This document shows, in pieces, positions 21,001-60,051 of a stretch of DNA of 64,000 bases. The DNA comes from Sphaerolaimus hirsutus. Taxonomy: Eukaryota; Nematoda; Chromadorea; Monhysterida; Sphaerolaimidae. Within the stretch, counting starts at the first letter, position 1, and every line of letters begins with the position of its first letter. Under the pieces are notes generated by a model that saw only the letters and a program-made list of their open reading frames with translations, did no database searches and was not told the origin of the DNA. The DNA is taken from assembly GCA_964036195.1 (NCBI GenBank), contig OZ038452.1, positions 13,634,704 through 13,698,703 of the forward strand, given 5' to 3'. Both the position numbers and the translations under genes were made by a program.

Positions 21001-21990
21001 AAACCGCATGTTTTGAAATCTTAGGTATAAAATCGTGACGGTGAACCTTCTGAAGAGTGGTACTATCTGAAAGAGCATTATCTCAGCTTTCCAATGGTAT
21101 GAATCACAGCATTTAGTTTTTCCTGGTTCCGGCCTCACATGCAATACGATCAACCCTTGATTGAGGCGCATTCCACATTTTCAAATCTTATGTATAAAAT
21201 CGTGACAGTGAACCTTCTGGAGAGTGGCAGTTTCTGAAAGAGAATTTTCTAAGCTTTCCAATGGTATAGACCACAGCATTGAGTTTTTCCTGGTTCTGGC
21301 CCCACATGCAATACAATCAACCCTAGATTAGGGCTCACATCACGTTTTGAAATCTTAGGTATAAAAAAGCAAACGCGAGCCTCCGGGGAGGCTGTGGATT
21401 CTGAAAGAGGAGGTTCTCAGCTTCGCAACGGTATCAAATATAGCCGTTACGTCTCATTAGTTCCGGCCTCACATGCGATGCAATCACCCAAGAGTAGTGT
21501 GCGCAGCACGTTTTGAAATCTTAGGTATAAAAAAGCTAACGCGAGCCTCTGGGGAGGCTGTGGATTCTGAAAGAGGAGGTTCTCAGCTTCGCAACGGTAT
21601 AAAATATAGCCGTTACGTCTCCTTAGTTCCGGCCTCACATTCGATGCGATCACCCAAGAGTAGTGTGTGCAGCACGTTTTGAAATCTTAGGTATAAAAAT
21701 GCTAACGCGAGCCTCTGGGGAGGCTGTGGATTCTGAAAGAGGAGGTTCTCAGCTTCGCAACGGTACAAAATATAGCCGTTACGTCTCCTTAGTTTTGGCC
21801 TCACATGTGATTTGATTGACCCAGATTAGTTCATGCAGTACATTTTGAAACCTTATGTATAAACTTATGACATTGAACCTACTGGTCAGCAGTGGATAAT
21901 GAAAGTTCACAATTTCAGCTTTCCAATGGTATAAAATATAGCTATTATGTATTGATAGTTGGGCACCAAATAGCAAATTATGTCAGAAAT
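18071..21990 (-). repeat. 166-bp satellite array, reversed half
   Basis: The same A and B monomers, now reverse complemented ('ccgttacgtctccttagttc' for A, 'ctttccaatggtat' for B), in about 23 copies. A longer duplicated module is visible: the block from about 18600 to 19130 is repeated nearly exactly at about 19260-19800. Monomers after about 21,815 are strongly diverged, as expected at an array edge. Confidence 0.93.
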
Positions 21991-30186: not shown

Positions 30187-39557
<9,371 letters not shown>

Positions 39558-41094: not shown

Positions 41095-41255
41095 GCCCCA
41101 CACACACTAGTTGACATCGACACCAAATGTCAACAAGTTCCCACCCCAATTCAAACCTTGCGTGTGAACGTCGTTCGTTGACTTGTCAGCGAGCTTTGAA
41201 TCGAGATCGGAACCAGTTGACATTTGGTGTCGATGTCAACTAGTGTGTGTGGGGT
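41095..41255. mobile_element. MITE of the ACTAGTTGACATC family
   Basis: 161 bp between 5-bp target duplications CTTTG (41090-41094 and 41256-41260). Ends GCCCCACACACACTAGTTGA and inverse. Inner arms 'gacaccaaatgtcaac' and 'gttgacatttggtgtc' are perfect inverses. Confidence 0.85.
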
Positions 41256-42175: not shown

Positions 42176-42179
42176 AATG
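42176..42179. other. Target-site duplication AATG, left
   Basis: It matches AATG at 60048-60051. The two copies confirm the element's ends. Confidence 0.9.
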
Positions 42180-44815
42180 TGTCATGAATTTTCACCGGCT
42201 ACTTTTTACTCAACCAAATTCCACTATGGCAAACTGCCAAGTTTTACCGATCTCACACCTACTCGTTGGATGAGCGACAAAGTAAGGCAACGGAAAAGCG
42301 ACTACCGATTGAATTCGCAACGCACAATGGTGAATTCACCGAAGTGAATATCACAGGTGTACGCTACGTCAATTAAGTTAGCTTTTTAGCGAATGGCGTT
42401 TTTATCAACGCACCAGCAGTTAGTTGAATGTCTAATTTACACCAAGGGGTCCGAAGTTTTTAGAAGAGATTTTATTTTAGGCGATTTTTTAGACTCAGAA
42501 TTCACACATTTAGATAGAACACAGGGAACACACTGAGAGCGAGTTTCTAACCAGCGGCACAAAACCTTCGAAAAAACTCCAAGAAAATGAAACCGAAGCA
42601 ATTTCGACTGAATCGACCCCTACTCTAAATTACGGTACGCTTTTATACGCAACAACATAAGCCAAGTCCAGACAACACTTCCACATACCACGAGAAGCAT
42701 GCTTACAAACGACTTTACAGACACACGGAATTTTAAAACGGGCATACCTAAAATTATTCACGGCGTCAGTTTACAGGATACGTCGATCAACTACACAAAA
42801 ACACAAAGAATTCACGCGCCAAAAATCGGGTTGGGAACAAGAGCGAGGATAAAAATAGAAAAATAAGAAAATGAACGAATGCGACAAGAATAAAAAGAAC
42901 AGGAAAAACACACGGGATACTGTAAAAACTTGTTTTAGCGCGAAAAAATGGCGGGCGATTCAAATTTTACTCAACGAACTCTACCGAAATCCCAAAACCA
43001 CCTCCACGAACGGGGAAACACACAGCAATTAGCGAAACAAATAAACACGCGAACAGTAATCCCATCAGCAAAAAGAGCGTATAATAAACGAAAATGACGT
43101 TGATATCCAAAGCGTAAGAAGCACACGTATTATTAATGCACAACGAAAAAATGTCGTAAGCGGGATAATCCATGATAAGATTAGGATACCGGTAAGGCGA
43201 ACGAAATTAATTTTCACACTGACTGTCAAGGAAAAAATGAATTACGGTACCTTTTTAAAGACTCTTAGCGGAAATTCTATCAGAGTGATTAAATAAATAC
43301 GCACTCAAATCAGATCACCTTTACACTTATCAAAATATTCGGGGAAAAAACAGGAAAAACAAGCGGCTTATTATTTCATCTCTCTGTATAATAAAGATCA
43401 ACCACGAAATTTGCATAAATTCCTAAATATCCAAATATCAAGTTATCAGTTTTCTAGGGGAAAGGGAAATACAAAAAAAATCAATCTAGGATTAGGTAGA
43501 TAAAAAAATAGCGAAGTTGCAAACGTAAAATCAAATAAAAATTAACATACTCGAGTTTTACCTATTCCCTACCAAACCTAAAGTTAAAATGAATATGAAG
43601 TCGGTATAACGCTTAACAGAAATACGAACGCAAATGATTGGCAACTTGAAAGTTTATAAATTCCAATCTTTGTAGCTTAAATGCATGTTTGGATTGCATG
43701 ACTTTTTGAAGTTTAAAAAAAAACAACTCAAGTGAATCCACTGCCACATGCCGAAACGCAACAGCCATTAACTACCGAAGGCACTTATCACGAAAATGAC
43801 CACTCTCGCTGCTACACCACTCATTCTGCTACCAGAATATTAATTAGTCAGCCACGGCTTTTTGATCCCATACGCACTGTGCAAAAACCACACCCCGACA
43901 ACACCGAACTGCTCAACTCACTCAAAAATAGGTACACTTGTCACTGTATGGGTGCTTGTTTCGATGAGATCGGCGGACTGGGCTGTTCTCACAACAAGCC
44001 AAGGGAGTAGGCATTTAGACATGCGATCATGCCTGTCGAGTTAGACTCGATTCTTTTAATTACCTCTCATTTTCAACACCAATCATCATCGCACCTCTAT
44101 AATCAGTGTACCTTTGTAAAATCGCATGTAAATTAACTTTTGTTTCCCAATCCGGAAATGCAGGAATGCACAGTACATACTAGATCAATAGCCGCGACCC
44201 TCACATCAAAAAAATGCAACGAAAGTTAGTCAAAATTCAACCTATGTGCCCTCAGTTATCACTGACCATTCACGCACTACGACACGTAACTGCAGCGTCA
44301 CTCTTTTTACTTAGAGAAAATAACTGAAACTTTGTTATGCAATCCAAACCGCTAGTAAAAATTACTTTTAAATTAAACTGTCACAATTAAAATTGTTGCC
44401 AATTCACTTGTCTCACTTTCTTAAAAAAAAAAAAAAAAACTACCTAATTAAAAAAATCTAAACAAATAAAAACAACTATTTACATCACAGCGTCAACTTT
44501 GCGTCAGATCCTCAATACCTCCAATCCTTTCCTTGGCCAAAAAAAACACACATAACACAATGGGGCACCGGAAAAACGGAAATGCACGTTGCCACGTTGC
44601 CAACGTAGCGCAGCGACGTAGCCGAAAACGTCAACGCCACGTTCGCCCACCGAATCGCCCAAAACCATCGTCGAAGTAGAACTGAAATGTTTAAATTGTT
44701 GTAAGCTCGGAAGTGTAAACAACCCTCTACATAAATTCATTAAGTGAACTATATATACATTTATACTTAAAATTTTTGAGATTTTACAATTTTTGGACAC
44801 CCACTTTTGCTCACA
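42180..44815 (-). repeat. 3' LTR, 2636 bp
   Basis: Begins TGTGAGCAAAAG and ends TTCATGACA on the minus strand (TG...CA). It matches the other LTR with a constant offset of 15228, then 15232 after an A-run of 17 against 21. Small open frames inside, including a hydrophobic 68-codon one at 42967-43173, are the same in both copies, but nothing else supports them as genes. Confidence 0.97.
42471..42476 (-). terminator. Poly(A) signal in 3' LTR
   Basis: AATAAA on the minus strand, about 165 nt downstream of the LTR TATA box (42641-42647). It would give an R region of roughly 150 nt and a U5 of about 275 nt. The equivalent in the 5' LTR is 57699-57704. Confidence 0.5.
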
Positions 44816-44832
44816 AACTCCACCAGCCATAC
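44816..44832 (-). other. Candidate polypurine tract
   Basis: GGCTGGTGGAGTT directly precedes the 3' LTR. It is short and impure compared with typical tracts. Confidence 0.3.
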
Positions 44833-45133: not shown

Positions 45134-48100
45134 TTACTCCGTTTCCATCTCCTCCTCTGGCTCCAAACCTGCCAAAGTTGGAGTCACTGGCGGGGGCGGA
45201 CTCTGTTCCTCTTGCGGTGGCGGTGACGTGCCAACTACAACAACCTGAACAGGTTGCTGCAGCTGCTGTGCGGCCACTTCCTCAGGCTGCTCCTGCTCAT
45301 CTTCCTGCATGGGCTCAGCAGATTCATTGGCCTCCTCCTGGATGGCGTCCATTTGTCTTAGCATCTGCCGGTCTGGGCTCATGGACTGTTGCTGTCGCTC
45401 AGCGTCCAACTCGGTGTTCAACTCGCCCGCCATTTGAATTAACTCATCCAATTTTTCTCCAATAATTGCATTATTGGCCTCTTCAGTATCTGGCTCTGGT
45501 TCTTGCTCTTGCCGTTGACCTTCCATTGCCGGTTCCTGCTGTTGAGCACCTTGTTCACTTTGCTCCTGTTCCACCTCCATCACTTCCTCCTCCTGGTGCG
45601 TTTTCTGTTTGTGTGCCGGTACGGGCGGCGCGTGTTCAGACTCCGAGGCCGAATCGGTCTCACTCGATCCCGATTTTGACGAACCCGACGACGAACTAGA
45701 GGAAGAGGAAGAACTCGACGAGGGAGAGCGACGACGACCGCGATACCGACGCCGAGACCGAGAACAACTCGCTTTTTCATCCGCGCGCGGCTGAACTTTC
45801 CCTGACTCCTCCTCCTGCTCTTCGGGCGGCAACATTTGCACGTCTGGGGAATCGGGAGCGGGAACGACATCGGCGTCTGGCTGAGGGGACACTCGCTGTT
45901 CGCTCACATCCACCTCCTGAACTTCTTCCGGCGACGGCGGAACCTCATTTTCTTCTTCTTCTTGCACGGGCGGAGCGGGTTCTTGCAGATCGACCGGCGC
46001 ACTTCTCCAGTGGCCCAGAAACCTAGCCAACGGGTCACTCTCCCACAAATGTCGCTCGTGGTACGCAAAAACGCGTCCCTTTCCTAATTCCACCGCCACA
46101 AAGCGCCAGAAAAATTCAGAATGCAGCACGGTAGCGGCGTTCATGATCACGACTCTGGCCGTTTTGGCGCGAGACGTGGCCACGTTGCACCGCTCCGGCA
46201 TCGCCAAAAAGCCAATTCTGTCCATCACATCGCGCTCGCGCTGCGACGGGTGTCCAGTAGCGTCCACGCGCGGCGCGCTACCCCTCACACATGACACAAT
46301 CACCACGTGCGCTTCACGAGCTTGCGCTCGATCAGCAGTGATGACTTTTTTCCGCCAAAACGCTGGGGTCACCAAATAATCGGGGAACCCCTCACCCCCT
46401 AACAACTGCGCCCAGCTCAATCGCACCAATTCGTCAATCACTCTTCTCTCCTGCGCTGAATAGAAACACACAATCAGCAGCGAATCGGCGCTTTCTAAAT
46501 CACTCCACGGAACGACATTCTCGCCCTCGCTGTTCAGCGCCAAAATGACAAATTGCTGCACAACGCGCACCACAATGTCTACCTCCGTCAAATTTTTAAC
46601 AGACACGCCCTCGCTCGTTTCAAAACCCATGTGCACGATTACAGAAGACAAAGGCACCTGATCGGCACCGCAAGCCATAAGCGGCAAAGTATCTCGCCAC
46701 TGACTGTATTCGTGGAACGCGCGCAATTGGCCATCGTACGCAGCGACTGAATTCGCTTGAATCAGCGCGTCGTGGCCGCGGAAGACAGTCTCGAGCTTCA
46801 GAATTGGGCACAACACACCTTCCACCAACCTATTGATCAGCGATGGATCAGGTTTCAGGATCGGAGCGATCCATGAATGCGGCCTGACCATTCGGGTCAA
46901 CTGCTTGCTATCGCCAAACAAAAGCACCAAGCCATTGTGGGGGAGTCGAGCGTTTGAAACAGCGCCAAAAATCGCAGTTTCATCCGCCAAAGACGCCTCG
47001 TCCACAAATACCGCGGCATATTTCAAAACTTGCAGTCGCTTATCGCGCGATGAATCCAAGGTCACATGGACTTGGCCTGGCTGCAGCACATTCAACACCA
47101 CCTTATGCAACCTAGTAGCCACCCTAACGAGGCGTCGCATTTCGCGCTTGTAAATTTTGCCCCACACCTGGTTGTCATCGACAAAGCCAGCCGCGGCCCC
47201 CCACGCCTGCACGCCCTCCTCTTGACCATCGTCCAGTGGCACCAAATCATCCTCGTCGTCTTCGTCGATGGACAAACGAACTAAAGGCAACTGCGACCGA
47301 ATGGCTTCGAAAATGTCGGCGGGGTGCTGATTGTTCGCGATGATCTCGTTCAAAGTGTCACAAATATGGCGTTGAGCGGTAAAGCGTTCATAAGCAGTTA
47401 GCCAGTGGTCATTCAATCGGATCACATGCATGGGCATGTTTTGCGCGATCAAATTCAGCAGCGGCAATTGCTGGAGCGTCATATCGACGTAGCGATCGTC
47501 AACTTCCAACAATGGACTCAGCACGCGAATCGCGAAAGCGGCGCGCACCTGACAAAAACGCGCATAGCCAGGTGTTTGAAAATTTGGCTTATCATCCATC
47601 GCAGTCCACCTCTCCCTACTGCGCAGCAAAACTTCCACGACCGTTTCCAAATTAGGCAGACCAATGTTTGCCAAACTTTGCAACGATCGTCTGGCAGACT
47701 CATCAGCGGCCGAATTCACACTGCAAGTAATCATTGTGGAGTGGTAAAGCGCATTTTTGTTTGCATCAGAGGGCAATTCCCTCTTCAGCGGGTTCGGCGG
47801 GTCATTTTTCTCAGTAAATTTGAACGCAACCGCGTACGCACACTGACTTTGCACAGTCGTTTTACCGGAACCGAACGGTGAATCACACATCAACAATAGC
47901 GGCGCAGTTTTTCGCACAGACTTGATAACTGACGCAATCACACGCCCCTGCCCCTCCTGCGGCCGAAAATCACCCTGCTGCGCTTGCAATAAATCTTCGC
48001 ATGTGCCTCTGCGCACCTCTGCATACAACCCGTCAGACTCAATTTTTTCGAGCGTGCGCTGCCAATCAGTCTCAACTTGGTTCAACTGCTTGTGCAGCAC

Positions 48101-49684
48101 TACCGCCATTTTGACCTGGTCTTCCACAGCGAGCATTCCGGTGTTGCTCTCGGTTGGCCGGTAACCACTAGGCCCCATTATGCACAACCGCTCCAAAATT
48201 TCCATGCGGCCATTGTAGCTAGGCGACAAAGCGGAACCGCGCACCATGTAATCGCAATTAGGCAGCAAATGCGGCGACAGCGCCTGCGGCACCAACACAT
48301 CCGGTTTGGCGACCAGCTGCACCGCCTCGGCAGTGATGTCGGCGCTGACCGTACGTAAATTTATTTGCGGGCGGCCAGTCAGAGCGCGCTCTTCCCCCCC
48401 GGGATCAGCTTCGACGATTTGTAGCGACGACATGGGCGAAGTAAAATTCAACATGTAGCCCTGCGCCTTATTCCTGTGCCACTCGGCCGTGTCGCGCATC
48501 GCAGCAGCTGGATTCAAATGCACGCGCTCCCATCTAATTATCGCAATTAATCCCCGCGGCCCATTTTGCCAAGTCACCTGCGCGCGCACCGCTTTCGCCC
48601 TAGTCGCAGTGTATCGCAAATGCGCTTCGTGACACACGTTAGCAGCGGCCAAAAAGATGGAACGAAGCTGCAGCTGAGAGGTGAGGTAATTTCTATTCAT
48701 TTCGCCCTTCCACTCCATACCAGCCTCAATTTGCCGCGCCGAAAAAATACGCACGCCATACGCATGACCCCAATAAAAGTTGTTGACTTTGCCGGCGTCA
48801 TCAAAAGCGTGATATTCTACATGCGCCACACCTAATTGTCCGGCGTGCGGGTGTATGTCACTTTCCATGACATTTTCGCTGTGCGCAAAAATTAACTTTT
48901 CAGGGCCCGGATCCCGCTCGTCGGCGCCTTTGAAGGGGGGTGCACTAATGTACCGCGAAGGGGTGAACGCTGCCCTCAAACGCAAGTATCTCCACTTGGC
49001 CGGATAAGGATGATATCCTTCGCGATTTTCCTGTCCTCTCTGTGAAATTTCCGATGCGGGCTCATCGACGGAGAGGTCAACCTGTCCTTGCGAAACAATA
49101 ACAACAGGGCGGCCCAAAAACAATGGCATTTGAGCGTCATTTTTCATAATTGTGACGCCTCGCAATTCCCAATATTTCGGATTGGCGCTAACCCTACTGA
49201 TACCAGTCGCGACAAAATGCATGCCGTGGCGGACAAGCGGCAAAAACATGTCGTAAGCTTCGTTAGCCTCGCGATATTCCTTCAAAATTTTCTGCACCGA
49301 CCGCTCACGAGCGCGCTCCGCTTTGTTGACCGAATAGGTGAAAAAGGGATAAGCCGTTTCCGCTTCCGACCACTCCGGATAACTTTCCAAAAGCGCCTGC
49401 GCATCGCCGTCGAAACGAATGTGGCATTGATAACTGGTAGGACGCTGCTCGTTACCGACGTGAACTCGATCCACTATTCCCGACAACTTCTGGTTGATGA
49501 CAAATTCAGGACAAGTCGATCGGGCGTTTCGAGGAGGATTGTAGGGCAGCGGCGGAATAGTGTCACCGCCCTGTTTTCCATGAGAAGTCCACGACTTGAG
49601 CGGCGCTTTGGCTATGCGCCCGCCACGATACGAACTGGAACTCGCTCCATACCCACCCATGGGTACGCCACCCGAACTAGTCAT
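45134..49684 (-). CDS. UPF1-like superfamily-1 helicase encoded by the retrotransposon
   Basis: Intact 1516-codon ORF in the env position. SF1 motifs: I (Walker A) DSPFGSGKTT at 601-610; II VFVDEAS at 892-898; III LLFGDSKQL at 921-929; motif IV-like LETVFRGHD with following AYDGQL at 964-986; V around 1113-1135 (ITADRAQAREAHVVIVSC); VI around 1158-1174 (GFLAMPERCNVATSRAK). Spacing and wording match the UPF1/DNA2/NAM7 (SF1B) group. These unwind RNA or DNA 5' to 3' with ATP. The gap between motifs I and II (about 290 residues) is long and has an acidic loop at 807-820. Residues 1-590 match nothing I recognise. Residues 1231-1516 are an acidic, Gln-rich tail with an Arg/Ser patch and a 12-Ser run. 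It looks more GC-rich than pol, which may mean capture from a host gene. Confidence 0.93.
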   Translation of the reverse strand: MTSSGGVPMGGYGASSSSYRGGRIAKAPLKSWTSHGKQGGDTIPPLPYNPPRNARSTCPEFVINQKLSGIVDRVHVGNEQRPTSYQCHIRFDGDAQALLESYPEWSEAETAYPFFTYSVNKAERARERSVQKILKEYREANEAYDMFLPLVRHGMHFVATGISRVSANPKYWELRGVTIMKNDAQMPLFLGRPVVIVSQGQVDLSVDEPASEISQRGQENREGYHPYPAKWRYLRLRAAFTPSRYISAPPFKGADERDPGPEKLIFAHSENVMESDIHPHAGQLGVAHVEYHAFDDAGKVNNFYWGHAYGVRIFSARQIEAGMEWKGEMNRNYLTSQLQLRSIFLAAANVCHEAHLRYTATRAKAVRAQVTWQNGPRGLIAIIRWERVHLNPAAAMRDTAEWHRNKAQGYMLNFTSPMSSLQIVEADPGGEERALTGRPQINLRTVSADITAEAVQLVAKPDVLVPQALSPHLLPNCDYMVRGSALSPSYNGRMEILERLCIMGPSGYRPTESNTGMLAVEDQVKMAVVLHKQLNQVETDWQRTLEKIESDGLYAEVRRGTCEDLLQAQQGDFRPQEGQGRVIASVIKSVRKTAPLLLMCDSPFGSGKTTVQSQCAYAVAFKFTEKNDPPNPLKRELPSDANKNALYHSTMITCSVNSAADESARRSLQSLANIGLPNLETVVEVLLRSRERWTAMDDKPNFQTPGYARFCQVRAAFAIRVLSPLLEVDDRYVDMTLQQLPLLNLIAQNMPMHVIRLNDHWLTAYERFTAQRHICDTLNEIIANNQHPADIFEAIRSQLPLVRLSIDEDDEDDLVPLDDGQEEGVQAWGAAAGFVDDNQVWGKIYKREMRRLVRVATRLHKVVLNVLQPGQVHVTLDSSRDKRLQVLKYAAVFVDEASLADETAIFGAVSNARLPHNGLVLLFGDSKQLTRMVRPHSWIAPILKPDPSLINRLVEGVLCPILKLETVFRGHDALIQANSVAAYDGQLRAFHEYSQWRDTLPLMACGADQVPLSSVIVHMGFETSEGVSVKNLTEVDIVVRVVQQFVILALNSEGENVVPWSDLESADSLLIVCFYSAQERRVIDELVRLSWAQLLGGEGFPDYLVTPAFWRKKVITADRAQAREAHVVIVSCVRGSAPRVDATGHPSQRERDVMDRIGFLAMPERCNVATSRAKTARVVIMNAATVLHSEFFWRFVAVELGKGRVFAYHERHLWESDPLARFLGHWRSAPVDLQEPAPPVQEEEENEVPPSPEEVQEVDVSEQRVSPQPDADVVPAPDSPDVQMLPPEEQEEESGKVQPRADEKASCSRSRRRYRGRRRSPSSSSSSSSSSSSGSSKSGSSETDSASESEHAPPVPAHKQKTHQEEEVMEVEQEQSEQGAQQQEPAMEGQRQEQEPEPDTEEANNAIIGEKLDELIQMAGELNTELDAERQQQSMSPDRQMLRQMDAIQEEANESAEPMQEDEQEQPEEVAAQQLQQPVQVVVVGTSPPPQEEQSPPPPVTPTLAGLEPEEEMETE

Positions 49685-50206
49685 ATTTCACACTTCAAAG
49701 TAGAGCACCGGAAAACACAACTTATTGCTACTTAAAATGCGCCACCCAGAATGTCGGCACCGAAATGCACGAAGGTCTGAGCGACACCCTAATCGAAAAA
49801 TTGCGAATTATTTTCAACGCACTACGTTGAACGTATTGCGCCAAAAATAATTTTTATTTTGTTGCGAAACGGGCGAAAATGAGAATGAGATTAAAGAACA
49901 AATTTAGAACGAAATAAATGCGATGGTATGAACAACTAACGAATTAAACTTGCGGCGATAATTAGAAATGAACAATTAATAACACCGATAAAATTTTCGC
50001 GCTTTACCTTTTACATAAAAAATAACTTTTTACCTCAAAATTACCTTGCGCACAATCAAAAATACCAAATTTGCAACCCCGAACTCACCACGAATTGACG
50101 GTCAGAATTAAACGCGAATAATCCAAAAATAAATTTTAATTGAATTTTCGAACGGAATAATTGACTTGGGACACTTTAGGTTGAAGAGCGGAAAATCTCA
50201 GGGTTT
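49685..50206 (-). other. Spacer between pol and the helicase ORF
   Basis: About 520 bases, AT-rich and without ORF. It would hold whatever signal (splice acceptor, internal promoter or re-initiation) lets the third ORF be expressed. A 26-base motif shared with the region before Gag Met156 lies at 49694-49718. Confidence 0.5.
49694..49718 (-). promoter_or_regulatory. Motif repeated before the helicase ORF and before Gag Met156
   Basis: Plus-strand TCAAAGTAGAGCACCGGAAA here and TCAAGGTAGAATACCGGAAA at 56885-56904 differ at 3 of 20 positions. The U3 of each LTR has GGGGCACCGGAAAAACGG (44563-44580). The role is unknown; it may be a shared initiation or processing signal. Confidence 0.4.
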
Positions 50207-52861
50207 TTAACCGAAAATCTGCGAATAGGTGGGATTAACTGGCTCATTTGTCAATTTAACGCGATCAGCATGAACGGTATAAGTTTTCTTAGACAACCTA
50301 TTAAACACGGTCACAATGGGATGCACATAATCTAAACATTCATACGGGCCAATATAATGATGCGTGAATTTCTTAACGCGGCCTAACTTTCGAAGAATTC
50401 GGGGCGAATAAACACGAACTGATTGACCGGGCTTCAAATTCAAGCGACGCGCACTGCGATTTGCATAAAAACACTCTTTTTCTTGCGCGCGCTGTAAAGC
50501 CGAATGCGCGGCCGCGCGGACGTCCGAAAGTCGCGCGTCTAAATTTGACACAAAAGGACTGTACGCCGTCGGCTTATCGGTCTTATCGGTGCCATTTCCC
50601 GTCGGCTCGATCATACACTCCCAAAGTGACGGAGAATTTGATCCAAATAGCAACGCATATGGTGTCACTTTCATAGAGGGGTGCATAGACGTATTATACG
50701 CATAGACAGCGGCGCCTAAGTGTTTGTCCCAATCCGAATGCGAGCCATTTACATAATGTGAAATTATTTCCATTAAGACTCCATTCCTACGCTCAACCAA
50801 ACGTAGCAATTCCGCAAAAATGCCGCCAATAAAGCTTGGTGCATTGTCGGATAAGATTACAGCGGGCACACCAAAAATCGGTAACACATGTTGCAAAAAC
50901 GCAATAGCCACAGTATCTTGCTTCAAATTAGGAACAGGCACTGCTAAACCAAAACGCGTACATTGATCCACAAATACCAATACATGCACATTCCTTTTTT
51001 CGGTAATTGGCAATGGCCCTACTGCATCAATCGCAATAAAATCACCAGGAAACTTAGCGATTTTCCGGCTCTGAATTTGAGTTTTCATTGAGCGGCGCAA
51101 TCCTTTCTTCGCGTTGCACGAAGGGCAAGTAGAAACCCATCTAGCGCATTCTGGACGCATATTTGTAAACCAAGCAAATTCGCGCAATCTTTCAAACGTT
51201 TTCATCACACCTAAATGTCCAGCAGTGGGATGGTTATGAGCCAATTCTAACACAGTGACAACTAGTGACTGGGGAATGCACGCAGGGTCGTATTTCCTTT
51301 CACCCACTAATATTGACGGTTCTGCATCACGCCTGACAACATCAAATTGATCAATGAAAAACGGTGGGGCCCTACGCAAAGTAGATTCCTCGCACATACG
51401 ACGAATTGTAATTATATACGGTTCTTCTTTTTGCAAACGCGACAACTCTTCAATTGGAGTAATGGGAGGAGGTAAAGCATCGAGTTTTTCCGGTTTCTTA
51501 ATTAATTGAACAGAACGGTGGCCACCAGCCATTAATTTAGGCGCATCGTCACTTTTGGGCGGCGATTTCAAAGCATTTTCAGAATTGGACTCCACCTTCT
51601 TTTTACTTCGCACGCGCATTGTCATTGGATGCGGCGCCCGCACAGTAGCAACGCTTGCCACTGGCAGTTCAGTAGCTACCGTAACTGACGGTTCCAAAGA
51701 CTTCATTTTCGCATGTTTCAGCCAATTTTGAGCAGAAGCCAATCGCGCCATGGCCTTAGCTACCGCTTGACAAGCCAAATGTTCCTCAGATGTTAACAAC
51801 GCCATTTCCTCAGTCAAAATTCTCGCCAATTCATCAACAGGTATATCAAATGCATATTCTTCAAACGCTTCGTCCAAATTAACACGCTCATCAAATTCAA
51901 CGGGTGCATCACGCCGGCGCGACAAAGCATCAGCCAATTCGTTACTTTTCCCACGCAAATGCTTAAAAGTAACTTGATATGATTGAATAGCAAGCGCAAA
52001 TCGGTGTAAACCCGTATGGGGATGGGTTTCCAAATTTGGATTTTTCACCCATGAAATACTTTTCGCATCAGTCCAAACTTCAAACGGCCGGCCCGCTAAA
52101 TAACAATGCCAATTGCGTATGCTCTCAAAAATAGCACATGCTTCTTGCGTAATTGCAGGCCATCGGGATTGCGCTTCAGAAAGTTTTCGACTATAAAATG
52201 AACACGCATGCAAAGCGGCGGCAGGTTCAGCGCGTTGTACTAAAATGCCAGCTAATGCAACTTTAGAAGCATCGGTAATAATTATGAACGGTTTACTGGG
52301 ATCAGGATACTGTATGCAGGGACTTTCAGCCACCATCACTTTCAACTTATTAAAAGCTTCCAAAGCGGCGGGGTTCGCATTTAAATCTACGGGAGTACTT
52401 CCGCTATACTTTTCAGTTCCTAATTCAGTTTTTGTTCGAGTTAAATTAGACAAAGGAGCGGCATATTCAGCACATTTATGAATTAATCTCCGGAAAAACC
52501 CAACGGCACCCAAAAACGCTTTAACTTCACGCACACACACAGGTAGCGGCCAGTCACTCAAATACTTTCGCTTATCATCTGGTATACAAATCCCTTCACG
52601 CCCTACCATATAACCCAGGAATTTAACAGCAGTTGTGCGCGCGAAAAAACACTTTTTTGGGTGTATTTTAAAACTGCTACTTATCAAACGCGACAAAACC
52701 TGACTTATATCACTCAAATGATCTTCCCATGACCTACTGTAAATGAGCAAATCGTCTATATATACCAACACATTTCGATGCAATAATCCAGCCATTGTAA
52801 CTTCAAAACAGCGCTGCGCTAAAGCCGGGGAACACTTTAATCCCATCGGCAAGCGTTTCAT
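50207..52861 (-). CDS. RT (C-terminal part), RNase H and integrase of the retrotransposon
   Basis: 884 codons counted from the first Met. The reading frame is open from just past the break at 52958, so the Met is not a real start. RT catalytic YIDD is at 34-37. RNase H has TDAS (D197), E240, TDAK (D265) and D311. The integrase zinc-binding region is at 541-582 (HNH and CPSC). The DDE core has D612, D672 and E690, but the last two are separated by 17 residues instead of the usual 35, so about 18 residues around the expected YHPQ-NG segment are missing in frame. A GPY/F-like segment (IGPYECLDY) is at about 837-845. It would normally be part of one Gag-Pol protein with the preceding ORF. Confidence 0.93.
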   Translation of the reverse strand: MKRLPMGLKCSPALAQRCFEVTMAGLLHRNVLVYIDDLLIYSRSWEDHLSDISQVLSRLISSSFKIHPKKCFFARTTAVKFLGYMVGREGICIPDDKRKYLSDWPLPVCVREVKAFLGAVGFFRRLIHKCAEYAAPLSNLTRTKTELGTEKYSGSTPVDLNANPAALEAFNKLKVMVAESPCIQYPDPSKPFIIITDASKVALAGILVQRAEPAAALHACSFYSRKLSEAQSRWPAITQEACAIFESIRNWHCYLAGRPFEVWTDAKSISWVKNPNLETHPHTGLHRFALAIQSYQVTFKHLRGKSNELADALSRRRDAPVEFDERVNLDEAFEEYAFDIPVDELARILTEEMALLTSEEHLACQAVAKAMARLASAQNWLKHAKMKSLEPSVTVATELPVASVATVRAPHPMTMRVRSKKKVESNSENALKSPPKSDDAPKLMAGGHRSVQLIKKPEKLDALPPPITPIEELSRLQKEEPYIITIRRMCEESTLRRAPPFFIDQFDVVRRDAEPSILVGERKYDPACIPQSLVVTVLELAHNHPTAGHLGVMKTFERLREFAWFTNMRPECARWVSTCPSCNAKKGLRRSMKTQIQSRKIAKFPGDFIAIDAVGPLPITEKRNVHVLVFVDQCTRFGLAVPVPNLKQDTVAIAFLQHVLPIFGVPAVILSDNAPSFIGGIFAELLRLVERRNGVLMEIISHYVNGSHSDWDKHLGAAVYAYNTSMHPSMKVTPYALLFGSNSPSLWECMIEPTGNGTDKTDKPTAYSPFVSNLDARLSDVRAAAHSALQRAQEKECFYANRSARRLNLKPGQSVRVYSPRILRKLGRVKKFTHHYIGPYECLDYVHPIVTVFNRLSKKTYTVHADRVKLTNEPVNPTYSQIFG

Positions 52862-52955
52862 CTGAAATTGACCAAAACAATTACGAAACGACGTAATATG
52901 TCTATCATCCGGATGCAGCGCAATGTTGTAAAACGCTTGGTTGATATCGACACTG

Positions 52956-55900
52956 CTAAAAGTATTTGCAACTGTGCAATGACTCTATTGTATCGTCTAA
53001 TCTGGGCAGCGGAAATTGGGGAGCGTGAACTACTGCATTTAATCGTCGATAATCTATCACCATGCGCTTGGCACCATCCGGCTTAGTAACAACTAATGTC
53101 GGCGCGCAGTACGGACTCGTACTGTGTTCAATGACGTCATGCTCAAGCAGGCAACTTAAATGCTTTTCTAAATACTGCTGGTCATCCAAACTCAACCTAT
53201 ACATTCGACACGCGACCGGAATTTTACTAGTCAACTGAAGTCGATAATCAACCAATTCACTGTATCCCAAATCATACTTATCCCTGGCGAAAGCATCCTG
53301 ATGAGTCAAAATTAACTCTTTTAATTGCTGGCGCTTAATTTCGTCCAATTCAACCGGTACTTCAAAATCCATTTCTCTCCCATCGGCACAAACCACTTTC
53401 ATAGTCGTATTCGCCGCTTTTGAAGGTACAGTGCCCTTCGTTGGTACTTTTTCCTCACTAGCTTCAAGTATAGTATCGGTAAAACTCATATCACGCTCGC
53501 GGCACTCTCGCACCCACTCAGCAGGCGGATCACCTCGACGCACTTGTAAAACACACTCCACTGGCTCTACGATGGCAATTTTCTGGCCCACCTGCAACTT
53601 TACTGGCACCTCAGTCACATTAACACACCTCACCGGAAATAATTCATTCGCGCTTTCATAAACAGCATTAGCTGCAAACACACCCGTTTTCACATGAAAT
53701 TCGTTCAAAGGCTCAATCGCAAACGTCAATTCATCAATTGGTTCAGATAATTTCGCACTAATTATCGTTTCATGCCGCGGCTTAATTTCAGTCGGTTCAG
53801 TCACAACTGCATAAACATGCCGTTCTTGCACTACAGGCGACGGGTTGTCAAAAGGCACAGTCAACTTTTTACGCGCATCGCCACTCTCAATTCGCAACTC
53901 ACGCGCAGGCATATCAATAACCATATGCCTCAATACATCAGCGCCTAATAAAATGTCGTCCGACAAACCGCTAATCACCTGAAATACAATAGAAAACGCT
54001 TTCCCGGTAATCATCACTTGAAGTTCCAACTGACCCTCAATTTGCAATTTGCATTGAGACGCGCTTTGCAATCCCCCCACAGGCGTGACCTCATCAAACG
54101 CTATGCAATTATTTCGATGCCTAGCCAACACCAGCGGGCTGCACAATGACCTCATCGCGCCTGTGTCCAACAGACACCTTTTGTATTCATTCCCCTCAAT
54201 TTCTACCGTAATCGACGGACTATAGTAAATTGGCACGAGTTCTTTACGCTTAGCCGTAATACTTTTGATGTTCGCAATTTCTTCACTGGTCAGCGTGACT
54301 ACATTCACCTTTTCCATGATGGCAGAACCTTTAGGAACGCGCAGCGGCGGCAAACGCTTAAATCTACTCACTGGCGTTTCTTCAATATCGGCACCATACC
54401 CTGAACTGTCAGCGCTAACTGGATTTAACTTTTGCGGCGGTGTCACGGGGGTCGCACCCCTTGCAGGATTGCGCCTATTTTCTATCGCTAACATGCGATT
54501 TAATTGTACCCGCAACACTCTCATTTTTATCCAATCACACACTGTGAACACTAAATACAACACCAGTTCACACAAAGCGGGCAGAATATATCTCAAAAAC
54601 ACGGAAGTGCACATTCCAGCGATAAATCCCTCAAGAAAATTTCGCACGGTCAAAATCCACTCATCTGACACTCCTTTTTTCTTAACAACGCCACCACTTG
54701 GAACACCCAGGGCGTCAACGCTTGCAAAAAACGTAAATAGACAGCACAGGAAAAACACACGGTTCAACACACTGGGCAACATACTCGGTTCCGACCACGT
54801 TCGGTACAAAGTCGGCACGCTCGCTTCACAATAATCGGACAACACATACAATTCAGAGTCAGATGACGTTCGCGACAAACTAATGTCCGGCGGTTCACAC
54901 ATAAATGTATGCATGGTCAATTCTAGCAGCGCTTCTAACTTAACGTACGTCAACGTGTCCTCAGGATCATCATGCGGATGCTCATCAGCATGCTCACAGA
55001 ACCCGCTTATATTCAACCCCTGCAAACCCATGTGTTGCAATTGAGCCCACCACTTTGTTCGAAAAATCATGCTATCTAACGAACGCGCATAAACCCAAGG
55101 CATAATCCAAGCCTCTCTTTCGAGCATGAATTGATGTTCTTGCGGCGTTATTTCAGGCGGATTGCATGGATCCTCTGCTTCCTCATCTGAACTTTCAAGA
55201 CCCGGTACAACCCTAATCATGCGCACATATTCCTTACTTTCTTGCACGCTGCGTGCATGATTCACTAAGTTCGCAGACACGCGCGTCGGATTTAACGCAG
55301 TCAATTCAGTTGACGGAGGGGCCGCAATGGCCATTTGCGATGATTGAACTTGTTGCACTGGAGACCAACTAGTAGTTGACACTTGCGCGGGAGGGGGATA
55401 ATACAGGTAAGGCGGCGCTTGCATGGAATATACAGGTTGCTGTGCAGAACGCATCATATTCGCTGGACCTCTGAAATTATTCATCGGTCGCTGCGGCGGC
55501 CCGCGCCGAAAATTTCTAAAGCGCGCTCTTTCCTCTTCTGTCAATTTAGGACAATCAGAACGAAAGTGATCATCTGCCCCACATTCATAACAGCCCTCAT
55601 CAAATTTACGCGGCCTAAATTTGGAAACTGGTTTCGCAGCATTGTTACCTATCAATTGCTTTTCCAAGTCAACTAAACGCTTATCCTTATCCTCTAACTG
55701 CCTAGAAAGTTCTTCCAATTTCACTCGCTGTTCCTCAAACTTTGGATTTTCCGCCGCCGCCGGAACGGGCGGGGAATTTCCGAAAGCTCCCGCACCCCCT
55801 AAAGCAAAAATTCGCTCGATTACCGAATTGGTGGCTTCTGAAACTAATTCAGCGTTGGATTTTGACTTTTTCTTACCACCCACTTTGTCCTTATCAATTT

Positions 55901-57347
55901 CCAGAAAACTTTCTTGCGTGCGCGCATTATTGACTACGTCTTGAAACTTAGCCCCAGCAGTAATAGATACATTCCTACGGATGTCAGGATACAATCCACT
56001 GACAAATTTCGCCACTGCCATCTTTTCGCGTTCAATTTTTGAAAGTTTCGGAAAAGCGCGTTTTATAATCTTTTCCAGCCGCACTGACCAATTTAACACA
56101 TCTTCATCTTCGCCCTGCTCACTACTAATCACTTCCCTTTGCGCATGATGCTCCGAAATGGGGTTAGTATAATAACGTTCCAAGGTGTCCATAAACTCCT
56201 CATAATCTAAATTAATCAATTCACTCTTATGCGACATGTAAATCGAACGCGCGCTGTCACGCAAATAAACCGGAAGCAGCGATTTTCGCTCATCCGTCGG
56301 AATTTGCAACGCCTCACAAACTGCGTCCCAATTTTTACGCCAATCAGCAAATTTATCATCAGCGCGCCCCTTAAATGGTATCACCTGTCCAGTAAGCGCG
56401 GTCATGGCAGCAGCATAACCCTCCCTACTAGTAGCAATCATACTCACAGCAGGTATAGGTGGTGTGGTAGCGGTAGAGCACCCTCCCGAATTAGAAACAG
56501 CGCTAATTACAGAATTAATCGCTTGCATATCAGGCTTTTCTAAATGAATATACTCAGCAAATGCATTAATCGCGTCCGCAATTTGACTCACATCATTTCG
56601 CAAATTATAGCAGTCAACACCTAACTTTACTAATGACACTAATTTTTCGTCATTATCACTCATGTTCCCATTTTCCAAAGAACTCATGGGTCGCTGATTA
56701 TACAAATAAGCGGCAATACTCACCGTTTGAGTCACAACCTGACTAAGGTTCCATTCTGACCCCTGAACCGAATTCCCCACTATCGACGAATTAATTTGAT
56801 TCAAAGTCAAATTTTTCGCTTGAATCAACAATTGCACCACATCGGGACCCGTGTTCACACCACTACCGCTCGCATGCGCCATACTCAAGGTAGAATACCG
56901 GAAAAACACACACTCACTCGACGACTGGGTACTCGCGCTTCGGTACCCGGCACTCGCGCTTCGGTGCCCTAACTTACTTTGCCCTACGGTCGGGAATGGC
57001 ACCTCCGCACCCGCACTTGGCTTGCCTTGCTCACAGGTCGGGAATGACTCCTCCGCACCTCTTTCAGGGACCGGTCCTTCCGCGTCCACCCAGCAGTTGA
57101 CGTCAAAGTCGTTAGGTTCGTCACTCAACTCAGCGGTTCCCGGTTCAGAACAGTGCGCGTCCGTACTGAACTGAACCGATTTCGATTTTTTCTTACTTTT
57201 CCGCTTTTCCCTTTTTTGCCCACTAATAATTTCGTCAGTTTCGCGTCCCAAAACAAAAATATCCATGCTTATCGGTTGCGTCGATCGGGTAGCCTTCCGT
57301 TCCTCCAGCCGGGCGGTGGTTCGTTTGTTCTCACCAGCGATTGTCAA
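52956..57347 (-). CDS. Gag-protease-RT (N-terminal part) polyprotein of the retrotransposon
   Basis: 1463 codons. Residues 1-155 are basic and low-complexity. A second plausible Gag start is Met156 (56882). A helical Gag core is around 325-490, then a coiled coil around 535-565. A CCHC zinc knuckle is at 586-599 (C-x2-C-x4-H-x4-C). Residues 600-860 are a Pro- and acid-rich spacer. Residues 862-940 are hydrophobic, with two or more possible membrane spans, which is odd between nucleocapsid and protease. The aspartic protease has DTGA at 1061-1064 and ILLGADV at 1132-1138. RT begins near 1320 and the frame stops at TAG 52956-52958, at the usual RT motif A. The break is one extra base in the AAAA run (plus strand) at 52958-52961. 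Confidence 0.93.
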   Translation of the reverse strand: MTIAGENKRTTARLEERKATRSTQPISMDIFVLGRETDEIISGQKREKRKSKKKSKSVQFSTDAHCSEPGTAELSDEPNDFDVNCWVDAEGPVPERGAEESFPTCEQGKPSAGAEVPFPTVGQSKLGHRSASAGYRSASTQSSSECVFFRYSTLSMAHASGSGVNTGPDVVQLLIQAKNLTLNQINSSIVGNSVQGSEWNLSQVVTQTVSIAAYLYNQRPMSSLENGNMSDNDEKLVSLVKLGVDCYNLRNDVSQIADAINAFAEYIHLEKPDMQAINSVISAVSNSGGCSTATTPPIPAVSMIATSREGYAAAMTALTGQVIPFKGRADDKFADWRKNWDAVCEALQIPTDERKSLLPVYLRDSARSIYMSHKSELINLDYEEFMDTLERYYTNPISEHHAQREVISSEQGEDEDVLNWSVRLEKIIKRAFPKLSKIEREKMAVAKFVSGLYPDIRRNVSITAGAKFQDVVNNARTQESFLEIDKDKVGGKKKSKSNAELVSEATNSVIERIFALGGAGAFGNSPPVPAAAENPKFEEQRVKLEELSRQLEDKDKRLVDLEKQLIGNNAAKPVSKFRPRKFDEGCYECGADDHFRSDCPKLTEEERARFRNFRRGPPQRPMNNFRGPANMMRSAQQPVYSMQAPPYLYYPPPAQVSTTSWSPVQQVQSSQMAIAAPPSTELTALNPTRVSANLVNHARSVQESKEYVRMIRVVPGLESSDEEAEDPCNPPEITPQEHQFMLEREAWIMPWVYARSLDSMIFRTKWWAQLQHMGLQGLNISGFCEHADEHPHDDPEDTLTYVKLEALLELTMHTFMCEPPDISLSRTSSDSELYVLSDYCEASVPTLYRTWSEPSMLPSVLNRVFFLCCLFTFFASVDALGVPSGGVVKKKGVSDEWILTVRNFLEGFIAGMCTSVFLRYILPALCELVLYLVFTVCDWIKMRVLRVQLNRMLAIENRRNPARGATPVTPPQKLNPVSADSSGYGADIEETPVSRFKRLPPLRVPKGSAIMEKVNVVTLTSEEIANIKSITAKRKELVPIYYSPSITVEIEGNEYKRCLLDTGAMRSLCSPLVLARHRNNCIAFDEVTPVGGLQSASQCKLQIEGQLELQVMITGKAFSIVFQVISGLSDDILLGADVLRHMVIDMPARELRIESGDARKKLTVPFDNPSPVVQERHVYAVVTEPTEIKPRHETIISAKLSEPIDELTFAIEPLNEFHVKTGVFAANAVYESANELFPVRCVNVTEVPVKLQVGQKIAIVEPVECVLQVRRGDPPAEWVRECRERDMSFTDTILEASEEKVPTKGTVPSKAANTTMKVVCADGREMDFEVPVELDEIKRQQLKELILTHQDAFARDKYDLGYSELVDYRLQLTSKIPVACRMYRLSLDDQQYLEKHLSCLLEHDVIEHSTSPYCAPTLVVTKPDGAKRMVIDYRRLNAVVHAPQFPLPRLDDTIESLHSCKYF

Positions 57348-57389: not shown

Positions 57390-57405
57390 CCACTCGCTGC
57401 TACCA
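57390..57405 (-). other. Primer-binding site
   Basis: TGGTAGCAGCGAGTGG starts two bases inside the 5' LTR edge. Its complement ends in CCA and looks like the acceptor end of a leucine tRNA. The tRNA identity is from memory of family sequences and is not verified. Confidence 0.65.
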
Positions 57406-57407
57406 GT

Positions 57408-60047
57408 TGTCATGAATTTTCACCGGCTACTTTTTACTCAACCAAATTCCACTATGGCAAACTGCCAAGTTTTACCGATCTCACACCTACTCGTTGGATG
57501 AGCGACAAAGTAAGGCAACGGAAAAGCGACTACCGATTGAATTCGCAACGCACAATGGTGAATTCACCGAAGTGAATATCACAGGTGTACGCTACGTCAA
57601 TTAAGTTAGCTTTTTAGCGAATGGCGTTTTTATCAACGCACCAGCAGTTAGTTGAATGTCTAATTTACACCAAGGGGTCCGAAGTTTTTAGAAGAGATTT
57701 TATTTTAGGCGATTTTTTAGACTCAGAATTCACACATTTAGATAGAACACAGGGAACACACTGAGAGCGAGTTTCTAACCAGCGGCACAAAACCTTCGAA
57801 AAAACTCCAAGAAAATGAAACCGAAGCAATTTCGACTGAATCGACCCCTACTCTAAATTACGGTACGCTTTTATACGCAACAACATAAGCCAAGTCCAGA
57901 CAACACTTCCACATACCACGAGAAGCATGCTTACAAACGACTTTACAGACACACGGAATTTTAAAACGGGCATACCTAAAATTATTCACGGCGTCAGTTT
58001 ACAGGATACGTCGATCAACTACACAAAAACACAAAGAATTCACGCGCCAAAAATCGGGTTGGGAACAAGAGCGAGGATAAAAATAGAAAAATAAGAAAAT
58101 GAACGAATGCGACAAGAATAAAAAGAACAGGAAAAACACACGGGATACTGTAAAAACTTGTTTTAGCGCGAAAAAATGGCGGGCGATTCAAATTTTACTC
58201 AACGAACTCTACCGAAATCCCAAAACCACCTCCACGAACGGGGAAACACACAGCAATTAGCGAAACAAATAAACACGCGAACAGTAATCCCATCAGCAAA
58301 AAGAGCGTATAATAAACGAAAATGACGTTGATATCCAAAGCGTAAGAAGCACACGTATTATTAATGCACAACGAAAAAATGTCGTAAGCGGGATAATCCA
58401 TGATAAGATTAGGATACCGGTAAGGCGAACGAAATTAATTTTCACACTGACTGTCAAGGAAAAAATGAATTACGGTACCTTTTTAAAGACTCTTAGCGGA
58501 AATTCTATCAGAGTGATTAAATAAATACGCACTCAAATCAGATCACCTTTACACTTATCAAAATATTCGGGGAAAAAACAGGAAAAACAAGCGGCTTATT
58601 ATTTCATCTCTCTGTATAATAAAGATCAACCACGAAATTTGCATAAATTCCTAAATATCCAAATATCAAGTTATCAGTTTTCTAGGGGAAAGGGAAATAC
58701 AAAAAAAATCAATCTAGGATTAGGTAGATAAAAAAATAGCGAAGTTGCAAACGTAAAATCAAATAAAAATTAACATACTCGAGTTTTACCTATTCCCTAC
58801 CAAACCTAAAGTTAAAATGAATATGAAGTCGGTATAACGCTTAACAGAAATACGAACGCAAATGATTGGCAACTTGAAAGTTTATAAATTCCAATCTTTG
58901 TAGCTTAAATGCATGTTTGGATTGCATGACTTTTTGAAGTTTAAAAAAAAACAACTCAAGTGAATCCACTGCCACATGCCGAAACGCAACAGCCATTAAC
59001 TACCGAAGGCACTTATCACGAAAATGACCACTCTCGCTGCTACACCACTCATTCTGCTACCAGAATATTAATTAGTCAGCCACGGCTTTTTGATCCCATA
59101 CGCACTGTGCAAAAACCACACCCCGACAACACCGAACTGCTCAACTCACTCAAAAATAGGTACACTTGTCACTGTATGGGTGCTTGTTTCGATGAGATCG
59201 GCGGACTGGGCTGTTCTCACAACAAGCCAAGGGAGTAGGCATTTAGACATGCGATCATGCCTGTCGAGTTAGACTCGATTCTTTTAATTACCTCTCATTT
59301 TCAACACCAATCATCATCGCACCTCTATAATCAGTGTACCTTTGTAAAATCGCATGTAAATTAACTTTTGTTTCCCAATCCGGAAATGCAGGAATGCACA
59401 GTACATACTAGATCAATAGCCGCGACCCTCACATCAAAAAAATGCAACGAAAGTTAGTCAAAATTCAACCTATGTGCCCTCAGTTATCACTGACCATTCA
59501 CGCACTACGACACGTAACTGCAGCGTCACTCTTTTTACTTAGAGAAAATAACTGAAACTTTGTTATGCAATCCAAACCGCTAGTAAAAATTACTTTTAAA
59601 TTAAACTGTCACAATTAAAATTGTTGCCAATTCACTTGTCTCACTTTCTTAAAAAAAAAAAAAAAAAAAAACTACCTAATTAAAAAAATCTAAACAAATA
59701 AAAACAACTATTTACATCACAGCGTCAACTTTGCGTCAGATCCTCAATACCTCCAATCCTTTCCTTGGCCAAAAAAAACACACATAACACAATGGGGCAC
59801 CGGAAAAACGGAAATGCACGTTGCCACGTTGCCAACGTAGCGCAGCGACGTAGCCGAAAACGTCAACGCCACGTTCGCCCACCGAATCGCCCAAAACCAT
59901 CGTCGAAGTAGAACTGAAATGTTTAAATTGTTGTAAGCTCGGAAGTGTAAACAACCCTCTACATAAATTCATTAAGTGAACTATATATACATTTATACTT
60001 AAAATTTTTGAGATTTTACAATTTTTGGACACCCACTTTTGCTCACA
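57408..60047 (-). repeat. 5' LTR, 2640 bp
   Basis: Same sequence as the 3' LTR apart from the longer poly(A) run at about 59651-59671. It is the promoter copy for the element's RNA. Confidence 0.97.
57869..57875 (-). promoter_or_regulatory. TATA box in 5' LTR
   Basis: GCGTATAAAAGCG on the minus strand, repeated at 42641-42647 in the 3' LTR. Transcription would start near 57840. This makes U3 about 2.2 kb. Confidence 0.6.
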
Positions 60048-60051
60048 AATG
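60048..60051. other. Target-site duplication AATG, right
   Basis: Partner of 42176-42179. It lies 30 bases past the transporter stop codon. Confidence 0.9.

Follow-up and report, generated by a model that had tools for sequence, protein, structure and literature searches.

Retrotransposons that carry helicases have been described before. A superfamily 1 (SF1) helicase with its motifs, retained over time, is encoded by the TRAS and Jockey long interspersed nuclear elements (LINEs) of insects and, in Aedes aegypti and Leptopilina boulardi, has been found fused to Ty1/copia fragments; all these helicases come from positive-strand RNA viruses, and those of TRAS and Jockey are virga-like and lie within LINE proteins (PMC5563155). 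Additional genes of other kinds are known from long terminal repeat (LTR) elements. Cer1 of C. elegans encodes CERV, a non-envelope RNA-export protein, in an open reading frame (ORF) 3' of pol (PMC10309623), bdelloid rotifer LTR elements carry captured enzymatic ORF3s (GDSL or DEDDy) that are common to unlike retroelements (PMC5408684), and the planarian giant gypsy element Burro has a mononegavirus-like Env in frame between gag and pol (PMC6431247). Here, we analysed a 64,000-nucleotide stretch of contig OZ038452.1 of the nematode Sphaerolaimus hirsutus (referred to as the window), whose minus strand contains a 17.9-kb Ty3/gypsy-type LTR retrotransposon with the gene of a UPF1-like SF1 helicase in the position of env.

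The helicase gene and its copies

The predicted helicase gene occupies positions 45134-49684 on the minus strand (1516 codons from its ATG). An earlier note, made from the sequence of the window, had described an intact ORF of this length between integrase and the 3' LTR, i.e., in the env slot, on the strand of pol. Its coordinates and length proved exact, and all SF1 motifs that it had named were located, starting at residues 605 to 1165. The stretches that we take to be motifs I to VI are, on the minus strand, motif I (Walker A, GSGKTT; 47855-47872, residue 605), motif II (VDEAS; 46991-47005, residue 894), motif III (GDSKQL; 46898-46915, residue 924), the motif IV-like stretch (VFRGH; 46772-46786, residue 967), motif V (DRAQAREAHVV; 46301-46333, residue 1118) and motif VI (RCNVATSRAK; 46163-46192, residue 1165). 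The lysine of motif I and the aspartate of motif II are 287 residues apart. The check that the earlier note had proposed, a search with the UPF1-like profiles AAA_11 and AAA_12, was borne out in one half: Pfam AAA_12 matched the ORF with 70.9 bits (cut-off 27; E 1.4e-19), and AAA_11 gave no match at E<=1, despite the presence of both Walker A and Walker B residues. TIGR00376 (the IGHMBP2 family) matched at 4.5e-9, far below its cut-off.

The protein can be divided into an N-terminal region (residues 1-570), the core (ca. 570-1215) and an acidic tail rich in arginine and serine (RS; 1216-1516). The N-terminal region contains six scattered cysteines and matched no solved relative at E<=1; the Pfam UPF1 cysteine/histidine (CH) zinc domain was not found in the ORF. 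In host UPF1, the CH zinc module at the N-terminus makes the contact with UPF2. E, S, P and Q abound in the tail, which contains an SR/RS block and yielded an SR-25 match under the cut-off in 10/10 copies scanned (of 30 fetched); such a tail fits a nuclear RNA-handling protein.

When the core (residues 564-1217) was compared with solved structures, NAM7 came first (E 7.9e-4, 0.0017 and 0.0031, the lowest value combining two stretches whose i-Evalues are 1.7 and 6.9, neither significant alone), followed by SMUBP-2 (0.015) and UPF1 (0.025). The NAM7 alignment revealed UPF1-type wording at motifs II to VI. The similarity to UPF1-type structures is thus weak, since the best match is composite and the full-length ORF matched no solved structure at E<=0.001; a single-sequence AlphaFold model had a mean predicted local distance difference test score (pLDDT) of 34. 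In addition, motif V carries A at the position at which NAM7 carries G (QARE versus QGRE), so enzymatic activity is not assured. By motifs I to VI and the AAA_12 match, the product is a predicted UPF1-like SF1 helicase, and the structure searches point, weakly, to NAM7/UPF1 as the nearest solved relative of its core.

The core was also compared with 5.8 billion proteins in a word-limited search, in which none of the 7986 candidates scored was a match at E<=0.001; the same kind of protein search with pol as a control gave 59 matches among 7994 scored candidates. The ORF had no match at E<=1 among PHROGs or to PF01443 (Viral_helicase1), no viral helicase was present among the core's 12 PDB matches up to E 10, and IMG/VR scans with this helicase and with that of a second group of elements (see below) gave no match. 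An origin from viral SF1 helicases was rejected on the PF01443 and PDB results, and an origin from Helitrons was rejected since LTRs, a target-site duplication and pol are present.

To count copies, the whole assembly (348.5 Mb, 762 contigs) was searched. All 31 scored helicase copies, the best 31 of 877 first-look candidates ranked by protein score to the window ORF, were 99-100% identical and without stops; 30 were full length and one was short by the last residue. The gene is thus not a lone captured gene, an alternative that the earlier note had named. Thirty loci (L009-L038, of which L009 is the window's own) were fetched, and at 30/30 the end of pol lies upstream and an LTR downstream of the helicase; within this genome, the flanking pattern that the note had wished to see checked thus holds at all the fetched loci.

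Over these 30 copies, the ratio of nonsynonymous to synonymous polymorphism (pN/pS) was 0.128 over the whole gene; by region, it amounted to 0.079 (core), 0.099 (N-terminal region) and 0.317 (tail). Ranking by protein score biases pN downward, the core value included, which counts against reading these ratios at face value. The end of integrase, on which the search did not rank, had a similar ratio (0.060, obtained by a slightly different method in which multi-change codons were split evenly). Diversity at the three codon positions of the helicase was 0.0033, 0.0050 and 0.0201; in the non-coding spacer next to the gene, the upstream part had values of 0.035-0.092. By these sequence measures, the copies show purifying selection.

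The boundaries of the element were determined by self-BLAST of the window. The 5' LTR (57408-60047, minus strand) and the 3' LTR (42180-44815, minus strand) both have TGT...ACA ends; the BLAST ranges (57408-60049 and 42180-44817, ca. 2.64 kb) run 2 nt beyond them. The two LTRs are 99.85% identical, with 0 mismatches and one 4-nt indel in an A run, and copies of a target-site duplication, AATG, were read directly on the left (42176-42179) and right (60048-60051). Since the LTRs are near-identical and AATG is duplicated on both sides, the insertion is recent. The helicase, pol and gag ORFs are all on the same strand. LTRs, a short target duplication, gag, protease (PR) and the order reverse transcriptase (RT)-RNase H-H2C2-integrase place the element in the Ty3/gypsy type (Metaviridae), with the gag and PR matches below Pfam cut-offs. 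We therefore conclude, with near certainty, that the element belongs to a recently active family of Ty3/gypsy-type LTR retrotransposons in which the third gene, at the place of env, encodes an intact UPF1-like SF1 helicase under purifying selection. The earlier note had proposed an LTR element with such a gene in the env slot.

A second helicase-bearing group

A search of the genome with AAA_11 gave 28 matches, and the rows with long open frames (604-1183 aa) correspond to 14 loci. Five of the 14 were fetched (L039-L043), with flanks seen for two, L039 (2316-9998) and L040 (1-9154). The order in both is gag, helicase ORF and a further ORF. Retrotrans_gag matched at 8e-7 (L039) and 6e-7 (L040), and the helicase ORFs are 1113 and 1177 aa long, respectively. 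The ORF after the helicase matched a Monjiviricetes fusion glycoprotein in L039 (7e-9) and an aspartic protease in L040 (3e-17), where there was no Monjiviricetes match at E<=1. By coordinates, the L040 protease ORF continues in frame into L044, which contains RT, RNase H, H2C2 and integrase; L040/L044 is the one locus at which the Ty3/gypsy-type pol of this group was examined.

The helicases of L040, L041 and L043 are 39-51% identical to that of L039, and all four frames are open over more than 1000 codons. A profile built from these four (L042, nearly the same as L041, was left out) matched NAM7 at 3.9e-8 over 604-1066, then UPF1, and Aquarius and SEN1 more weakly. With the helicase of this group, too, a word-limited search against 5.8 billion proteins (7993 scored) gave no match at E<=0.001. 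We conclude that the predicted helicase in this group is UPF1-like, very divergent and located between gag and pol.

Similarity between the window helicase and those of the second group is distant and non-significant (blastp 0.14 and 0.49; hhalign E 0.079 and 0.035, probability ca. 1%). In pol trees, a free search kept both groups apart on long branches, and a tree in which they stay together was better by 16.5 log units (approximately unbiased test, p-AU 0.76). Since these trees support neither the union nor the separation of the groups with confidence, one acquisition followed by relocation is as possible as two acquisitions.

Structure of the element and its surroundings

All features of the element described below are on the minus strand. 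A stretch starting with TGG, 2 nt inside the 5' LTR (57390-57405), was read directly as a putative primer-binding site. It is followed by an open frame of 1463 codons (52956-57347) covering gag, PR and the 5' part of RT, with a PNMA-like capsid and a CCHC knuckle (both under the Pfam cut-off) and an aspartic-protease-like stretch at 53925-54212 (gag-asp_proteas E 0.045, weak and below the cut-off). A hydropathy scan revealed a hydrophobic membrane-like stretch (residues 863-940; 54528-54761) between the CCHC knuckle and the protease; its position corresponds to that of the glycoprotein match in L039 of the second group. The 3' part of pol (50207-52861) contains RT with YIDD, RNase H, H2C2 and the integrase core (Pfam RVT_1 9e-18, RT_RNaseH 4e-25, H2C2 1e-15 and rve 5e-8). 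In a tree of this downstream part with 39 of its 59 database matches, among which named Ty3/gypsy reference clades were not included, the window element was on a long branch (Shimodaira-Hasegawa-like approximate likelihood ratio test, SH-aLRT, 85).

The gag-pol frame ends at a stop inside RT, and the +1 frame continues from that point (frame passage at 52920-52970). The two-frame arrangement was also present in 4/4 further copies picked from the 30, at the same place in 5/5 copies inspected. Since the frame change is common to the copies and the downstream integrase is under strong purifying selection, it is probably bridged, most simply by programmed frameshifting at the stop codon, for which this is a candidate site. 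The window copy has an in-frame 54-nt gap in its integrase core (50800-50803), detected from BLAST pieces of the fetched copies; the 54 nt are present in 29/29 other fetched copies. Because this part of the integrase core is missing despite near-identical LTRs, the window copy may owe its mobility to proteins supplied in trans, or may have suffered damage during insertion.

Between pol and the helicase there is a non-coding spacer of 522 nt. Its diversity per 60-nt bin was 0.035-0.092 over 50206-49847 and 0.004-0.0095 over 49846-49667 (just past the ATG), and the 160 nt adjoining the ATG were ca. nine-fold less diverse than the more upstream part of the spacer. A stretch of 197 nt that reaches up to the ATG folded at -59.9 kcal/mol (z -4.12; 0/200 shuffles were as good), compared to z of +0.87 in the neighbouring spacer and -2.02 at the coding start. 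Low diversity in the bins and the fold together delimit a putative folded leader at 49685-49880. Its variable columns were in excess at unpaired sites (14/63 unpaired versus 10/134 paired; Fisher p 0.005).

Several observations weigh against a structured RNA here. Without the four end columns, the excess at unpaired sites has p = 0.07. Substitutions kept the pair at five pairs and broke it at three, one of these in 28/30 copies, and 3 copies have a small deletion that affects two pairs. The leader could instead be a promoter or a splice acceptor. Rfam gave nothing credible for the leader and spacer (its single match at E<=1 was sub-threshold and lay outside the leader, on the other strand of the spacer), and leader and LTR shared no exact match longer than 12 nt, the longest one being on opposite strands.

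Inverted repeats are present on either side of the element, at 60757-60934 (88 nt, 92%, 2-nt gap) and 41096-41254 (66 nt, 88%, 27-nt gap). Further away, 15441-21942 contains two satellite arrays, oppositely oriented and built from a unit of 166-167 bp with a higher period of 333-334 bp; they meet at ca. 18040-18078. Minus-strand exon-like stretches at 32965-37403 resemble a host enolase. Elsewhere in the genome, exon-like stretches that we take to resemble host UPF1 were observed at L002, L003, L005 and L006, on contigs C14 and C65; they are near-identical between the two contigs, which are perhaps alternative haplotypes.

Possible role of the helicase and comparison with known systems

The nearest cellular relatives of the helicase act on RNA. 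This activity of its relatives, the RS-like tail and the recruitment of UPF1 by retroviruses for RNA export lead us to favour a role in RNA handling. Human immunodeficiency virus 1 (HIV-1) uses UPF1 for genomic RNA export while excluding UPF2 (PMC4693258), and Rex of human T-cell leukaemia virus 1 (HTLV-1) loads UPF1 onto viral RNA independently of nonsense-mediated decay (NMD) (PMC12093142). In our reading, the helicase would have a cistron of its own, preceded by the conserved structured leader, as the low diversity near the ATG and the strong leader fold relative to controls led us to propose. Its product would bind the long genomic RNA of the element, and ATP-driven translocation would strip or remodel proteins and structure on this RNA. 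Full-length RNA would thereby be exported, kept from decay and passed to Gag. A UPF1 core without the CH module could give the pro-viral help that HIV-1 and HTLV-1 take from host UPF1, without triggering decay. That an own-cistron helicase remodels element RNA for export, protection from decay and hand-over to Gag is a tentative proposal, with a real but less than even chance of being right. The helicase suggests that the element supplies its own RNA-handling machine rather than borrowing that of the host.

Alternatively, the helicase may act inside the particle during reverse transcription, unwinding the RNA template or displacing strands for RT over ca. 18 kb. The large size of the element with its 2.6-kb LTRs and the presence of motifs I-VI would suit such a role, and possible benefits to the element have been discussed for LINE-borne SF1 helicases (PMC5563155). 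However, 522 non-coding nt lie between gag-pol and the helicase ORF, whose product would therefore not be packaged in the polyprotein by default; the helicase of the second group is likewise a separate ORF, and the account that we consulted of the giant gypsy elements Ogre and Burro names no helicase (PMC6431247). We consider an in-particle role unlikely.

We give similarly little credence to a function against host defence, in which the helicase would unwind duplexes or serve as a dominant-negative UPF1/MOV10-like decoy against small-RNA silencing or NMD. A UPF1-like core without the CH module could be such a decoy, viral-type SF1 helicases borne by transposons are reported to suppress silencing weakly (PMC6338049), and NMD has been termed antiviral (PMC12093142). 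The silencing-suppressing helicases are, however, virga-like, whereas the window ORF has no match to viral SF1 helicases in the searches above.

Retroelements are known to capture host genes, and the helicase could be a passenger of this kind, a cellular helicase that does nothing for the element and spreads along with a successful family. The young age of the insertion and the selection of copies by protein score would fit a passenger. Purifying selection on the helicase and constraint on the leader nevertheless argue against it, as do the long open frames of the second-group helicases at 39-51% identity and the lack of a relative of the core among the 7986 scored candidates of a word-limited search of the kind in which pol finds 59; a passenger is quite improbable. 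The chance that pol and helicase were joined from two loci by misassembly, the other alternative that the earlier note had raised, is negligible and was rejected, since the same pol-helicase-LTR junctions recur at 30/30 loci on many contigs.

The remodelling of element RNA by the helicase thus remains our preferred reading. Taken as a whole, the best explanation combines the family identity with a UPF2-independent UPF1-like RNA remodeller, a combination that we hold to be close to evenly balanced between right and wrong. A broader proposal, which we regard as rather doubtful, is that Ty3/gypsy-type elements adopted a UPF1-like helicase into their core gene set, in two different gene orders. 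They would then form a class of retroelements in which an endogenous, UPF2-independent "private UPF1", made from a structured leader alongside the +1 frame passage in RT, takes the place of Rev/Rex-type hijacking of host UPF1 in exporting genomic RNA and evading NMD.

For HIV-1 and HTLV-1, host UPF1 is a foe through NMD and at the same time a helper in export and RNA loading (PMC4693258, PMC12093142). An element-encoded UPF1-like core may separate these two roles in nature, and makes it testable whether a UPF1 motor without the UPF2-binding module promotes genomic RNA. Cellular UPF1/NAM7 and SMUBP-2 share with the element helicase the wording of the core motifs and are its best, though weak, sequence match; unlike them, it has no Pfam CH domain, spans 287 residues between the motif I lysine and the motif II aspartate, has an acidic/RS tail and matches them in the core with E of ca. 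1e-3 only.

The earlier note knew of no Ty3/gypsy element with a UPF1-like helicase, and we found none in the open-licence literature, among the titles and abstract starts listed; helicase-bearing retrotransposons as such were already in print (PMC5563155). Compared to the TRAS, Jockey and Ty1/copia cases, the helicase of the window element is UPF1-like, is encoded by a separate gene of a Ty3/gypsy-type element and has no viral match. Cer1 resembles the window element in the position of its extra gene, but CERV has 517 aa and is expressed from a spliced 5-exon mRNA, and the word "helicase" is absent from the main text of that paper (PMC10309623). In the report on bdelloid rotifer elements it occurs only in a reference title (PMC5408684). 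The Env of Burro, between gag and pol (PMC6431247), has its likeness in what the second group seems to have. The window family and the second group, two unlike groups within one genome, extend to helicases the range of enzymes that third ORFs of LTR elements are reported to encode.

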